From Halogranum gelatinilyticum (lineage in GTDB: Archaea; Halobacteriota; Halobacteria; Halobacteriales; Haloferacaceae): 64,000 nucleotides of DNA. The translations under genes and the position numbers were made by a program. Position 1 is the stretch's first letter; each line of letters begins with the position of its first letter. Shown one piece after another: positions 877 to 7,595 of this stretch. The notes beneath the pieces are model-generated. The model was not told the origin of the DNA, ran no database searches, and saw only the letters and a program-made list of their open reading frames with translations. The stretch is from NCBI RefSeq assembly GCF_900103715.1, contig NZ_FNHL01000002.1:496001-560000 (forward strand), read 5' to 3'.

Positions 877-1533
877 ATGGACGAGACAAAACAAATGATG
901 CCTTCGGATGATCGGGATAGGGGAATACTCACTCCAGATGATCGTAAGTTCCTGAAGGGAAAGAAAGAATTCTCGAGTGAACAATCTGAGCGGGATGCTC
1001 GCTACAGGATACGTAAGAGGGTCAAGAATTCGATATTGGACTTCAGTATCCTTCTACATCACCTTGACGAGAGAGATCGAAAGCAGGTATTCTCGAAGCA
1101 TATGGCGAAGTCTTCTGATGATGAGATATCTAGCGAGAAGCTACGCGAATTTGTTGAATCAACTATGTTCTCGCAAGGGATTTCCGACGCAATTTCTCTA
1201 CTATATCTGGGCGTCAGCGATGCTGGCGATTCATTTGAGGCGGTTCTCAAAGAAGGAGTTGCTGGTGCTGAGGAGAGTAAGGGATACTTGGTTGACAGCG
1301 TCTCGGTCGATATCGATGTTTCTCGTGGGAAGCCCGACATGGAAGATCTTGTTTCGAAGTTGAATAGTGGCGAACCCTTATCCGAAGAAGAGATTAGAGC
1401 AGTCATCAACTCTGGCCAATTTGACATCGATGCCGAGTCGCTTGATATGCTTCTCCAGCAGATATCATCTCAATTATCCGTAGAGTCTGAGGATGTCGAG
1501 ATTAATCTGAATTACGAACCAGATGACGAATAG
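877..1533 (+). CDS. Low-GC hypothetical protein
   Basis: A 218-residue acidic protein with no membrane segment and no family I recognise. A ribosome-binding-like AGGTGG precedes the ATG. The N-terminal 60 residues are charged and probably flexible. The middle (about 100-150) has hydrophobic helices, and the C-terminal third is rich in Glu/Asp/Ser. Codon use is much less GC-biased than in the housekeeping genes further right, which suggests transfer. It converges on the TGT-like/nuclease cassette, with 9 bases between the stop codons, so it may be a passenger of the same island. Confidence 0.6.
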   Translation: MDETKQMMPSDDRDRGILTPDDRKFLKGKKEFSSEQSERDARYRIRKRVKNSILDFSILLHHLDERDRKQVFSKHMAKSSDDEISSEKLREFVESTMFSQGISDAISLLYLGVSDAGDSFEAVLKEGVAGAEESKGYLVDSVSVDIDVSRGKPDMEDLVSKLNSGEPLSEEEIRAVINSGQFDIDAESLDMLLQQISSQLSVESEDVEINLNYEPDDE

Positions 1534-1542
1534 CGGTTAACT

Positions 1543-2814
1543 CTACGATGTCGTAGTGAGTGAGTAGTCAGACAACTCGCGCTGCTTCTCCTCTTCGACG
1601 TAGTGTTCTATCGCCGTTGCCCATTTCCGCAGGTGGTTCGCATTTGCAGCGTGGTCGGTGTCGTCCAACGCTTCCTGATACTTGTCGTCGCCGTCCCATA
1701 GTTCTCCAACGAGGTCATCGAGCGTCTCATTCGTGACAGTCTCGCGATGCCCGTCTCTGGTTGTGATATAGTGTTGGGCTCGAGCTTTGCGATCATCTGC
1801 GAGCTGGAATATGTCGCTCCAAGAGTTCATGACCGGGTCGCAGGCTTGACACTCACAGAGCGGGTCATCAAAGTCCGTGCCAAGGTCTTCGACGTCGTAG
1901 ACGTTGAGGAACTCCTTCACGGGGTTGTAGTAATATCGAACACTGTCACCACTGCCACCACCGGAGTCCGTTTTTTCCGATTTAGACTCGCCATGCTCGA
2001 TTCCAAAGCTTACACCACGGAGACCGAAGAAGGCCATTAGATTAGCGAAGTAGTCACTGTACATCATGTGCGGATCAACTCCTCGCTGGGAGACCCGTTC
2101 AACCAAGTCGAGAGCTTTGCAGAGTTCCCCGATAGAAACATCTCGCTTATCGAATCCATCAATCCACAGGAACACCTCTCGAACCGGAGCCTCCTCCACT
2201 GCACGTACAATCTCTCTTCTGTTGCTCTCGGTATGGATGAAGGATTTATCCACGTAGAAGCAGGGCTTGACGGGACAATCACTGTATTCGGCCGCGTAGT
2301 TGATAATCTCCTCATTCGCCCGGATATCTGGCCGACTATTGATCTTAACGTACCAAGGAACCAGGGCTCGAGGAGTTAGACTGGCAACGCTGTCGAGGTA
2401 GCGTCCTAGCTTGTTTTCGCTGGCCTCATCCAGCAAATCCAGTTGCAGGTCGCACGACTTCTCGATTATCTTCTTCTGGTCTTCGCGACTGAAGTCGAAG
2501 TAGTTGAGGTTGCTCCGATTTTCCAGCACGTCAGAGATTGGTGGCCCGTAGTATTCTGCCAGGTTACTCGCCCACGAGCGAAGCTCTCCGTTCGACTTTC
2601 GAAAGTTGTCTCCCTTCCTGAACTCGGGGAGGTACGGTTGAACGTAGAAGTCTATCTGCTGTTCCGGTTGGAGGTTGGACAGCGTCCCAGCGATCTTGTC
2701 TGTCTCTGTAACGACGAAATGAGACGAAACTATGAGAGAATCGTAGTAGGGTGCAGCACGCTCAATTTCTTTGTACTCGCCGAAGGTGTAGTAGTGGAGG
2801 CTATTTTCGAACAT
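1543..2814 (-). CDS. TGT/DpdA-like zinc-binding TIM-barrel protein
   Basis: This 423-residue protein carries Cys320, Cys322, Cys325 and His348. The spacing CxCx2Cx22H matches the zinc site of the tRNA-guanine transglycosylase (TGT) superfamily. Upstream, a YSDYFANLM...GLRGVSFGIEHGE stretch (about 252-276) resembles a late beta-alpha unit of a TIM barrel. TGT-fold enzymes exchange guanine for a 7-deazaguanine in tRNA; the DpdA branch does so in DNA. The ATG at 2814 overlaps the nuclease gene by 14 bases, so the two are translationally coupled. The superfamily assignment rests on the zinc motif. Base-exchange activity and a DNA target are inferences, and I could not place the catalytic aspartates. 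Confidence 0.6.
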   Translation of the reverse strand: MFENSLHYYTFGEYKEIERAAPYYDSLIVSSHFVVTETDKIAGTLSNLQPEQQIDFYVQPYLPEFRKGDNFRKSNGELRSWASNLAEYYGPPISDVLENRSNLNYFDFSREDQKKIIEKSCDLQLDLLDEASENKLGRYLDSVASLTPRALVPWYVKINSRPDIRANEEIINYAAEYSDCPVKPCFYVDKSFIHTESNRREIVRAVEEAPVREVFLWIDGFDKRDVSIGELCKALDLVERVSQRGVDPHMMYSDYFANLMAFFGLRGVSFGIEHGESKSEKTDSGGGSGDSVRYYYNPVKEFLNVYDVEDLGTDFDDPLCECQACDPVMNSWSDIFQLADDRKARAQHYITTRDGHRETVTNETLDDLVGELWDGDDKYQEALDDTDHAANANHLRKWATAIEHYVEEEKQRELSDYSLTTTS

Positions 2815-3196
2815 GGTTGCGGACGTATTCCTGCACCCGAGATTTCGCGTGTGTGCTAGGATCATTCCGCACAGGAGGTGATAAGCATTTCACATGAGTT
2901 CCTACTGATAGAAGACCTATCGGTGAATCATCAATCCGAGAGACGAGATCGTCGGTGATGTTCTCTTCCCAAACCGATAGGTAAGAGAAGTCCACGACTG
3001 AGGTGTTTCTCTCGGCTTGGTTGATTCCTCGCTTGAAGTCTCGAGATTTCAGTTCCACAGCGACCGTGGTATTGCCCTGTAAGGCGACGATGTCGATAGG
3101 GATAGAGTAGAGACGTGCCTCTGTTGCAAATTGGTACCCTTCTTCGCGGAGGTAGTCAGCGACAATGCCCAGTTGATATTTTTCCGACCAGTACAT
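2801..3196 (-). CDS. PD-(D/E)XK-type nuclease-like protein
   Basis: A 131-residue protein with a compact restriction-endonuclease-like core: Glu26 in TEARLY, Asp35 in IPIDIVAL, the VAVELK strand giving Glu48-x-Lys50, then Gln60 in the following helix. This is the usual E...D...ExK...Q layout of the PD-(D/E)XK fold seen in Holliday-junction resolvases and restriction enzymes. It sits between the YwgA-like gene (8-base gap) and the TGT-like gene (14-base overlap), so all three are probably one transcript. It could cut DNA according to base modification. Substrate and specificity cannot be read from the sequence. Confidence 0.65.
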   Translation of the reverse strand: MYWSEKYQLGIVADYLREEGYQFATEARLYSIPIDIVALQGNTTVAVELKSRDFKRGINQAERNTSVVDFSYLSVWEENITDDLVSRIDDSPIGLLSVGTHVKCLSPPVRNDPSTHAKSRVQEYVRNHVRK

Positions 3197-3203
3197 CAGA
3201 GAC

Positions 3204-3710
3204 CTACCCCAGAACGTCTTCCTTGATTTTCGACTTGTCGGTGTACTCTGGGTATTGCTCGTAAACGTACTCGAGGAGGTCGTCTAACTCCAGGTCATTG
3301 TATTTCTCGACGAGTGTCTCCAGATCTTCCTTCGTCTCGGGGTCAAGAACAGCGTCCAGCTCTTGGCTGATTTTGCGGCCTTTCTCAGTTATCACGAACT
3401 TCTTTCCGGCATGGTTGCTCCGATCCTCGGAGTCTCGGATGTAGTCATAGTCTTCGTCGGATTCAATTTCTTCGATGGCACCCAGAGAGATGAGGAACTC
3501 CAACGCGTCGAATGCACCTTCCGAAAAGGGACCGTAGTGGTAAGACTCGAATTCGAACGTGATGTCTTCGTAGAGGTTACTGAACTCGCTCTCGTGTTCG
3601 ATGAGGAAGAGTAGCTTCTGTAGGCGTGTGGTTCCCTCGATCTCGTCGGCATATCGGAAGAGCAGAAATGCGACGTCCTCTCTGCGGTCGATATCGTCGA
3701 TATTAGCCAT
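3204..3710 (-). CDS. YwgA/DUF4065-like helical protein
   Basis: A 168-residue protein starting MANIDDIDRRED. Residues 29-38 (RLQKLLFLIE) and 57-63 (YHYGPFS) are the hallmark of the YwgA/DUF4065 (Panacea-like) group, whose members appear in prophages, toxin-antitoxin pairs and defence islands. A winged-helix-like segment follows (about 64-125), then an acidic helical tail. It is the first gene of the cassette with the nuclease and TGT-like protein. By analogy it may be a regulator, antitoxin or specificity partner. The start at 3710 is chosen because an in-frame codon 32 residues upstream would add an atypical extension. Confidence 0.55.
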   Translation of the reverse strand: MANIDDIDRREDVAFLLFRYADEIEGTTRLQKLLFLIEHESEFSNLYEDITFEFESYHYGPFSEGAFDALEFLISLGAIEEIESDEDYDYIRDSEDRSNHAGKKFVITEKGRKISQELDAVLDPETKEDLETLVEKYNDLELDDLLEYVYEQYPEYTDKSKIKEDVLG

Positions 3711-3872: not shown

Positions 3873-4817
3873 CTACCACTCCTCTTCACGAACTGCTGTG
3901 TCTGGATCCATTTGCACATGACGTACTTGAATGTCTGGTGGGTTGGGGGAATTTTCTATTTGAGCCTTAGTGGCACCCATTTTAATCGCTGTTTCAAGAG
4001 ATGTTCTACCCTTGATTGGAACTATGAATTGGACGACTTCGGTCGAATAATTTGATCCATCCACTCCCTGATATTCAAGTCCTATCGAAAACGAATACAC
4101 ACCTATCCCAGACACCTCATGTAATTTCTGTGATATTAGCTCAAAAGCCCATGGTGAAAATCTATCGTTGCCATGTCCATATTCCTTTTTGACCAACACA
4201 CTTGGAGATATGATGAAAATATTCGACTGCTTAGGATGGAGATAGTTATCATCTGCTTGATACCAATCTAATTCACTTTCATCAAGAGTAACATCCTCAG
4301 TATGAGGTTTGAGAATCATGTCGTCTGATTTTGTATGTGGTGTGATCTTCACACGAATGTTGCTCGCAGGGCCGGTACCAATGTTCGAAATCTTCAGTTT
4401 AAATTGGCTACTTGGTTCGCTGTAAGGCCTTAATTTATCAACTACAAGATTCGGCTTTTGATTCAATGATAAGATTTCTTTTTGATCTCTCTGAATCTCG
4501 CTCTGGGAATCAAGAAGCGAAGTTTGTTTCTCTTGGAAGGAGGCCTGATCAGATAGTGACTCTGCTTGTGCAGAAAGGGCAGCCGCCTGATCGCTTAGGG
4601 CATCGGCTTGCTCTTGTTGTGTCTGTCCTGAACTCCAATACAGATACAAAAGCCCTAGGGTAAGGGTAGCGTCAATAATAATGCCAAATAGTTGGATTTC
4701 ATCCCCTTCCGGTGCCAACATTAGGATTAATATTGAAAGAATATAGAAACAGACCGTAGATAAGGCAAGAGCGAAGCTAGCATATACAAACTTATCAATT
4801 ATGTCTTGAATTTTCAT
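3873..4817 (-). CDS. Membrane protein with coiled-coil and soluble domain
   Basis: A 314-residue protein. Two transmembrane helices (about 12-35 and 45-63) are followed by a coiled coil (about 64-115) built from ALSDQA/ALSAQAESLSDQA repeats, then a beta-rich soluble domain of about 200 residues. The start at 4817 is supported by a CATATATG box about 28 nt upstream. Base composition is strikingly AT-rich and Lys/Asn/Ser use is higher than in neighbours, so the gene is probably of foreign origin. Similar two-TM plus coiled-coil designs occur in stress- or phage-related membrane sensors, but I recognise no family and assign no function. Confidence 0.65.
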   Translation of the reverse strand: MKIQDIIDKFVYASFALALSTVCFYILSILILMLAPEGDEIQLFGIIIDATLTLGLLYLYWSSGQTQQEQADALSDQAAALSAQAESLSDQASFQEKQTSLLDSQSEIQRDQKEILSLNQKPNLVVDKLRPYSEPSSQFKLKISNIGTGPASNIRVKITPHTKSDDMILKPHTEDVTLDESELDWYQADDNYLHPKQSNIFIISPSVLVKKEYGHGNDRFSPWAFELISQKLHEVSGIGVYSFSIGLEYQGVDGSNYSTEVVQFIVPIKGRTSLETAIKMGATKAQIENSPNPPDIQVRHVQMDPDTAVREEEW

Positions 4818-4841
4818 TAGAGGAGAAATTATAAGCATCAC

Positions 4842-6242: not shown

Positions 6243-6582
6243 AGCCACGCAGTCCCGTGAGGAACTGTTGGTCTCCGACCTCACCGCGTTCCAGACTAAC
6301 GCACTGTACGTTATCGCAGGTGAAGAGGACACTGAGCAGTGCTACGGGCTGGAAATCATGCGGCGTCTCAGAGAGGTCTACGGTAGGGTCATTCACCACA
6401 GCCGCCTCTACACGAACCTCGAGAGACTCGTCGACGATGACTTCGTCGCCAAAGGTCAACTCGACGAGCGCACGAACTTCTACGTCCTCACCGAGAAGGG
6501 ACAGTACGCGCTTCGTGAATACCTCGAGTGGCAGGCTCGTCACTTGGGTCCAGAAGTTTCCGAGGAAGGTGACGACGCATGA
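6235..6582 (+). CDS. PadR-family winged-helix regulator
   Basis: A 115-residue protein. FQTNALYVIAGEED...CYGLEIMRRLREVYG opens a PadR winged helix, and YTNLERLVDDDFV...RTNFYVLTEKGQ is its recognition helix and wing (about 18-95). The start is TTG at 6235, inside the preceding gene, because no ATG gives the full first helix. It overlaps the recombinase gene by 4 bases (ATGA), so the proteins are coupled. It probably regulates excision or integration of the element. Confidence 0.75.
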   Translation: MSEATQSREELLVSDLTAFQTNALYVIAGEEDTEQCYGLEIMRRLREVYGRVIHHSRLYTNLERLVDDDFVAKGQLDERTNFYVLTEKGQYALREYLEWQARHLGPEVSEEGDDA

Positions 6583-7595
6583 CCGACGACCTCGAGCCGC
6601 TCAAACCCCGCGAGGCGGTGAAGATGTATCTCGACTCTCGACGCAACGAGGTCAGCGACCAGACGCTGCAGTCGCACGACTATCGACTCCAGAAGTTCGT
6701 CGAGTGGTGCCAGGACAACGAGATTACCAACATGAACGACCTCGGCGGCCGCGACCTCCACTTCTTCCGCGTTCACCGCCGGGAGGAGGACGGGTTGAAG
6801 CCGGTCACGATGCAGGGACAGCTCTCGACACTCCGGCGGTTCCTGCAGTTCTGTGCGACGGTCGACGCCGTCGACTCCAACCTCGCCTCGAAAATCATCC
6901 TCCCGCGGCTCAAGCGCGGCGAGGAGGCTCGCGACATCAAACTCGAGCCCGACCACGCTGAAGCGATTCTCGAGTGGCTCGACACGTACCACTACGCGAG
7001 CCGGAAGCACGTCGAGGTACTTCTCGCGTGGCACACCGGGATGCGTATCGGTGCGATGCACGCCATCGATGTCGACGACGTCGACTTCGAGGACCTCTGC
7101 ATCGAACTCCGCCACCGACCGGAGAGCGACACGCCGCTGAAGAACGGTATCGACGGCGAACGTGACATCAGTATCACGCTGGAGATCGGGCAGGTGCTCC
7201 ACGACTACCTCGAGGTCAACCACTTCGACGTGACCGACGAGTTCGGACGGAAGCCGTTCCTCTCGTCTTCACACGGCCGCGTCTCGATTTCGAACATCCG
7301 CGGTGACTTCTACGCGTCCACTCGCCCCTGCAATTGGGGGAACTGTCCGCACGGACGCGAGCTCGCCGAGTGCGAGGCCATCAACCGTACCTCGGCGAGT
7401 CGCTGTCCGTCGTCTGTGAGTGCTCACCCGATTCGTCGTGGGTCAATCACTCACCAACTACGGCAGGACATCCCGACCGACATCGTGAGCGGCCGCGTGA
7501 ACGCGACGCCCGAGATCATCGACAAGCACTACGACCGTCGGACGAAGCGCGACCGGATGGAACAGCGTCGTCAGCACCTGGAGAAGCTGGAGTGA
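6579..7595 (+). CDS. Tyrosine recombinase (XerC/D-like integrase)
   Basis: A 338-residue site-specific recombinase. The N-terminal SAM-like core-binding domain covers about 5-110. The catalytic domain shows Arg156 in HTGMRIGAM, His283-x-x-Arg286 in HPIRRGS and the nucleophile Tyr318 in KHYDRRT. A Cys-rich insertion (Cys251, 256, 265, 276) lies between the beta hairpin and the HxxR box and may bind zinc. It is the last gene of a three-gene overlapping operon at the right border of the accessory region. It would cut and join the attachment site by a 3'-phosphotyrosine intermediate. All catalytic residues look intact. Confidence 0.85.
   Translation: MTDDLEPLKPREAVKMYLDSRRNEVSDQTLQSHDYRLQKFVEWCQDNEITNMNDLGGRDLHFFRVHRREEDGLKPVTMQGQLSTLRRFLQFCATVDAVDSNLASKIILPRLKRGEEARDIKLEPDHAEAILEWLDTYHYASRKHVEVLLAWHTGMRIGAMHAIDVDDVDFEDLCIELRHRPESDTPLKNGIDGERDISITLEIGQVLHDYLEVNHFDVTDEFGRKPFLSSSHGRVSISNIRGDFYASTRPCNWGNCPHGRELAECEAINRTSASRCPSSVSAHPIRRGSITHQLRQDIPTDIVSGRVNATPEIIDKHYDRRTKRDRMEQRRQHLEKLE

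Follow-up and report, generated by a model that had tools for sequence, protein, structure and literature searches.

A co-inherited haloarchaeal gene trio combines a Panacea-type protein, a predicted PD-(D/E)XK nuclease and a putative TIM-barrel protein with a TGT-like zinc signature

A 64,000-nucleotide stretch of the Halogranum gelatinilyticum genome (contig NZ_FNHL01000002.1; hereafter the window) carries, at 1543-3710 on the minus strand, a SocA/Panacea (DUF4065) gene, a PD-(D/E)XK nuclease gene and a gene for a protein with a C-x-C-x2-C-x22-H signature, in that order (genes 1 to 3). We find these three genes to be a co-inherited, tightly packed unit, and tentatively favour reading it as a mobile, defence-type nuclease cassette, that is, as a restriction or abortive-infection module restrained by its Panacea protein and not as a modification-restriction system. 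The unit is compact, extends from haloarchaea to an actinobacterial plasmid and includes a protein family that is named in no library.

Three genes in a low-GC island

An original prediction made from the sequence of the window had placed three overlapping or nearly adjacent ORFs of one direction at this site, and all three are present: genes 1 and 2 are separated by a gap of 7 bp, and genes 2 and 3 overlap by 14 bp (Table 1). Gene 1 starts with the ATG at 3710, a Met shared by its homologues (MP.ID.IDRR), and gene 3 starts at 2814, its homologues beginning MFE[NT]; the longer ORF starts listed for the trio genes, such as the extension of gene 3 to 2865 by the ORF tool, were rejected because the homologues back 3710 and 2814. 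The low-GC island beside an integrase that had been noted earlier is likewise visible, with a GC content of 0.41-0.52 across the cassette and just upstream, as against about 0.66-0.70 beyond 8.5 kb. No tRNA gene was found. The membrane protein gene immediately upstream was considered as a fourth part of the cassette and rejected, its homologue being absent beside the other trio copies.

A gene that the original prediction did not include, convergent with gene 3, is conserved with the trio in the window's own subclade: in loci L020, L021 and L022, the closest three relatives, its homologues (50-56% identity) adjoin gene 3 at the 3′ end, and more distant relatives occur in 255 of 391 haloarchaeal genomes. 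This family has no Pfam name and is present also on the H. volcanii plasmid NC_001375; its trio-linked subfamily is distinct from the rest.

Table 1. Coordinates of the trio, its key residues and neighbouring genes in the window
Feature	Position	Strand	Basis
Convergent fourth gene, 218 aa, trio-linked subfamily of a widespread haloarchaeal family	877..1533	+	
Gene 3, 423 aa, with TGT-like zinc signature and predicted TIM barrel	1543..2814	-	family of 15, AlphaFold
C-x-C-x2-C-x22-H: Cys320 (1855-1857), Cys322 (1849-1851), Cys325 (1840-1842), His348 (1771-1773)	1771..1857	-	
Most conserved gene 3 segment: Glu276 (1987-1989), Glu280, Arg293-Tyr294-Tyr295	1930..1989	-	
Gene 2, predicted PD-(D/E)XK nuclease, 131 aa	2801..3196	-	core conserved in 15 relatives
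Gene 2 core codons: E5 (3182-3184), D35 (3092-3094), E48 (3053-3055), K50 (3047-3049), Q60 (3017-3019)		-	
Gene 1, SocA/Panacea (DUF4065), 168 aa, putative antitoxin or regulator	3204..3710	-	PF13274, PADLOC
Membrane/coiled-coil protein upstream of the trio, 322 aa, 2 predicted TM	3873..4841	-	
Recombinase of the phage-integrase family, next to the low-GC island	6579..7595	+	PF00589 + PF02899

The three genes travel together

Gene 3 was found in 12 of the 391 haloarchaeal genomes, and strong matches to the nuclease (E<1e-57) occur in exactly these 12, the next best match among the 391 genomes being short (4.5e-11). A weak thirteenth match to the gene 3 profile, in genome G118, was rejected as a helicase-like protein. 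Three further copies lie on plasmids. Two of these are from Haloarcula sinaiiensis (pHsi540) and Haloarcula sp. JP-L23, and the third is on pSI-1 of Arthrobacter sp. AK-1, an actinobacterium whose copy shows 18-31% identity to the window proteins. Co-occurrence of the three genes, by which the original prediction had proposed to judge itself, is thus conserved in other genomes.

Arthrobacter pSI-1 and the 13 haloarchaeal trios other than that of the window all have the same gene order, and several copies are plasmid-borne. Between the three genes, the protein distance matrices are correlated (r=0.71, 0.79 and 0.58), with none of 2000 permutations as high. In one of the 13 trios, that of genome G226, gene 3 is split across two contigs (L030 on C4, L031 on C11), each half bordering a 381-aa ORF of one family, apparently reflecting an IS insertion with rearrangement.

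Searched directly against genome contigs and viral contigs, the gene 3 protein of the window found no relatives; an alignment used as the query recovered three named loci in the genome contigs and no relative in the viral contigs.

A Panacea-type protein precedes a predicted nuclease

Gene 1 matches PF13274 with E=1.8e-5 and 26.0 bits, just above the gathering cut-off of 25.7, and the PADLOC model PDC-M19A with E=1e-14; its homologue at locus L023 scores 33.5 bits against PF13274. The YHYGPFS motif, from which the protein had been called DUF4065/YwgA-type, is present, while the YwgA name had to be given up, since among named families only the SocA/Panacea type matches. Panacea is a versatile antitoxin domain, as shown experimentally in other systems, and the putative toxin domain combinations with which it pairs number at least 88 (PMC8832971). 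One plasmid-encoded Panacea protein listed in that study, WP_049938427.1, is the gene-1 homologue of the same trio on Haloarcula marismortui pNG400. With an antitoxin-type domain in its first gene, the trio fits nuclease control better than restriction-modification.

For gene 2, the E-D-ExK-Q nuclease core seen earlier is conserved throughout the family: E5, E48, K50 and Q60 are invariant in 15/15 members and D35 is kept in 14/15, the exception being Arthrobacter, where an alignment shift seems to be at work. Gene 2 matches the UPF0102, REase_MTES_1575 and Hjc profiles weakly; the motif itself suggests that gene 2 encodes an active nuclease.

Gene 3 carries a specific zinc-type signature

The C-x-C-x2-C-x22-H signature is present at the four residues originally named. 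Among 352 non-overlapping haloarchaeal ORFs, the pattern C.C..C.{18,32}H is confined to the gene 3 family and two proteins encoded at other TGT loci, and is therefore not a common chance pattern. Within the family, the Cys residues are found in 13/15 members and the His in 15/15. Since His348 stays invariant even in the two members that lack the Cys cluster, L023 and L017 (Arthrobacter), it is more than a zinc ligand, and the zinc reading is incomplete. Also invariant in all 15 members, Arthrobacter included, are E276, R293, Y295 and W398, and E276 and E280 could form a different active site.

The same two Cys-less members are the only ones with an extra protein of ~200 aa between genes 1 and 2 (L023 7532-8119, L017 4314-4916). 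Both proteins have three predicted TM segments arranged alike (one TM, a coil and two further TM) and are dissimilar in sequence; they are possible membrane effectors.

Database searches with gene 3 returned no relatives in Pfam, PADLOC, PHROG, NCBIfam or PDB sequences, the one weak Pfam match being noise, and the DpdA family model NF041059 gave no match at E<=1. Matches of the gene 3 profile to PDB sequences (designed PPR proteins, Rpb6) were rejected as low-complexity noise. In profile comparisons by hhalign, gene 3 aligned with TGT, DpdA-like and TgtA alignments at scores of 39-47 (E 5e-4 to 3e-5), as compared with at most 30 for shuffles, and its zinc site was placed on the TGT zinc site; against a small set of bacterial-type TGTs the signal was absent. 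Once the three Cys and the His were masked, or when the barrel part was used alone, the signal fell to the shuffle background, and we no longer regard TGT homology of gene 3 as supported by sequence. Like the archaeosine enzymes TgtA and ArcS, gene 3 has a C-x-C-x2-C-x(~22)-H zinc signature, which in gene 3 follows the predicted TIM barrel; it differs from them in that the similarity is confined to these Cys/His residues and in lacking the FDSA/FDCV nucleophile.

A predicted TIM barrel with altered catalytic positions

AlphaFold, given four sequences with the Halovenus homologue first, predicted a TIM barrel of moderate confidence (pLDDT 58.6, pTM 0.61), best for residues 1-255 and with the zinc region poorly modelled. 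Foldseek matched this model to many TIM barrels, showing no preference for TGT. A model with the window protein first was poor (pLDDT 46), and its Foldseek matches were discarded, including Z. mobilis TGT at rank 38 (E=0.15).

Mapping the TGT positions by strand order and the zinc-site anchor on this moderate-confidence model, we would place the nucleophile at residue 272, where the 15 gene 3 members have I, T, P, V or S and never Asp. The other catalytic Asp would correspond to residue 59, where most members have D or E, the two Natrialba copies N and the window protein Q. Membership of gene 3 in the TGT superfamily is plausible because of the predicted fold type, the order of barrel then zinc site, and the specific signature. 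The assignment of gene 3 as TGT/DpdA-like in the original prediction thus survives in part: the zinc signature stands and a TIM barrel not specific to TGT is predicted, whereas sequence homology was not supported and the mapped nucleophile position holds no Asp.

Defence genes beside other trio copies

Within about 5.5 kb of the trio, 12 of 19 large neighbours match PADLOC models, compared with one weak match in 10 window proteins in a control that was small and drawn from one region. These neighbours occur at 7 of the 13 other haloarchaeal trio copies and comprise type I, IIG, II and IV restriction proteins as well as SIR2/ThsA-like and LmuB/SMC-like proteins. At the window copy, no recognised defence gene was detected among the flanking ORFs scanned with PADLOC. 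Probes for QueD and QueE revealed no preQ0 genes beside any trio copy, while a different haloarchaeal TGT locus carries adjoining QueD and QueE. The host itself has separate TgtA and ArcS genes.

Candidate modes of action

The reading we tentatively favour is a nuclease cassette that would serve defence or addiction. As a Panacea-restrained restriction or abortive-infection module, the trio would have the PD-(D/E)XK protein as its nucleic-acid-cutting effector. Recognition would fall to the TGT-like barrel, which would bind the DNA or RNA target, or a guanine-type base within it, and bring or license the nuclease; we infer this role because the canonical TGT catalytic residues are absent. The Panacea protein would bind one or both of its partners and silence the unit until it is released by a virus or plasmid. 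If the trio is indeed a defence module, the TGT-like barrel would join the known recognition or effector parts, and the module would be testable in model haloarchaea.

In line with the earlier statement that no described system with this exact trio was known, the openly accessible literature searched yielded no description of a Panacea, PD-(D/E)XK and TGT-like trio, and no paper treating DUF4065/Panacea together with a tRNA-guanine transglycosylase or DpdA. The trio is absent from the closest systems on record, namely Panacea toxin-antitoxin operons, Dpd and the TGT-containing BREX-related capture systems (PMC12839542).

A rather unlikely alternative, overlapping with the preferred explanation, is a classical toxin-antitoxin system. 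Here the Panacea protein would neutralise the nuclease (or gene 3), the main effect of the unit would be to stabilise plasmids and islands, and gene 3 would be an accessory or a second toxin. The domain's at least 88 putative toxin combinations, with WP_049938427.1 among the listed proteins (PMC8832971), and the plasmid location of several trio copies are what this scheme would lead one to expect. Panacea (DUF4065/SocA, PanA) toxin-antitoxin systems share with the trio a SocA/Panacea protein as gene 1 of a short operon. The trio departs from those systems by two further conserved genes downstream, one for a PD-(D/E)XK nuclease and one for the large TGT-like barrel. That third protein is large and always present and so is not an optional extra, and the neighbours of the trio are virus-defence genes, which also speaks against this alternative.

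The original prediction had proposed a minimal modification-restriction system acting on DNA. In such a system, gene 3 would be an active DpdA-like transglycosylase placing preQ0, which the host makes for archaeosine, into self DNA, and the nuclease would cut unmodified DNA. We consider this improbable, DNA modification being the weaker reading in view of the missing partners and canonical catalytic residues. The TGT-type zinc signature, specific to the gene 3 family and TGT-type proteins among the sampled ORFs, and the TIM-barrel prediction are compatible with it, and given TgtA and ArcS, preQ0 should exist in the host. The majority clade keeps Asp or Glu at one TGT catalytic position, but on the mapping above the nucleophile Asp is missing in 15/15 members, and the window protein and both Natrialba proteins have lost the two Asp positions. 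The installation of 7-deazaguanines inferred for the trio is thus not supported, given the lost nucleophile, the Gln at the other catalytic position in the window protein and the preQ0 genes not found nearby. Dpd modification-restriction systems (DpdA-DpdC and partners) resemble the trio in that one protein has a TGT-type zinc signature and a nuclease is encoded close by; the trio, with its three small genes, differs in lacking an NCBIfam DpdA match, its sequence signal being confined to Cys/His and the Cys cluster absent in two members, and DpdB/DpdC-like partners were not seen.

Quite improbable, too, is a type IV-like restriction of 7-deazaguanine virus DNA, in which a TGT-fold reader devoid of the catalytic Asp would recognise preQ1, preQ0 or G+ and direct the nuclease under Panacea control. 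In DNA of the halovirus HVTV-1, about 30% of Gs are preQ1 (PMC6884629), and a preQ0/G+ pathway is encoded in all Druskaviridae (PMC8651126). The trio is found in species of Haloarcula, the genus of the HVTV-1 host. It shares with type IV (modification-dependent) restriction a nuclease and a possible base-recognition subunit in a cassette free of a methyltransferase, and differs from it in having neither a known reader domain (PUA/EVE/YTH etc.) nor a McrB-type GTPase. If the barrel does read 7-deazaguanine, the system would be aimed at a modification widely used by haloviruses to escape restriction.

An RNA-level system, with the TGT-like barrel binding tRNA or other RNA and the PD-(D/E)XK protein cleaving upon an infection-changed tRNA modification, is highly improbable: the majority of TGT-superfamily proteins act on tRNA, and haloarchaeal tRNA carries archaeosine, but no PUA domain was found, the usual substrate of PD-(D/E)XK enzymes is DNA, and DNA-targeting systems dominate the trio neighbourhoods.

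Other TGT and Panacea-like loci

Several other loci came to light alongside the trio. Locus L103 (4992-8061, Haloarcula sinaiiensis pHsi139), and also L104 and L105, encode a TGT (344 aa, with FDSS and the zinc site kept) together with a 293-aa protein and a BrxC/D-type ATPase; QueD/QueE and a 969-aa DUF6884-type protein lie nearby. In contrast with gene 3, these TGTs keep the FDSS and HN motifs, and that of L103 stands beside QueD/QueE, making this type of locus a better candidate than the trio for real 7-deazaguanine DNA modification. A TGT-type protein in an archaeal defence setting is known from BREX-related capture (BRC; PMC12839542), a setting shared by the TGT-BrxC/D loci on haloarchaeal plasmids (L103-L105) and by the trio with its TGT-like protein; unlike the trio, BRC has PglZ, HerA/FtsK and STAND/AAA proteins.

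Genome G002 has two further loci of this kind. At L097 (1887-5151), one operon encodes a DpdA-like protein of 413 aa with FDSS and CxCxxC, a 157-aa protein without a name and a MutL/MORC-type ATPase that is similar to BbrUII restriction enzymes. At L098 (2808-4805), a TGT-type protein of 665 aa has an ArcS-like C-terminal part, with a transposase-like ORF near.

Panacea-like proteins, finally, were seen in other company. On two haloarchaeal plasmids (L108 4962-6146, L110 4983-6160), they are convergent with DUF6338 proteins, possibly forming a separate toxin-antitoxin pair. On a viral contig (L036 5557-12334), a 298-aa protein with a Panacea-like domain and a longer C-terminal part is encoded in an operon whose other products are a type III-like methyltransferase, a helicase-type Res subunit and a protein of 276 aa.
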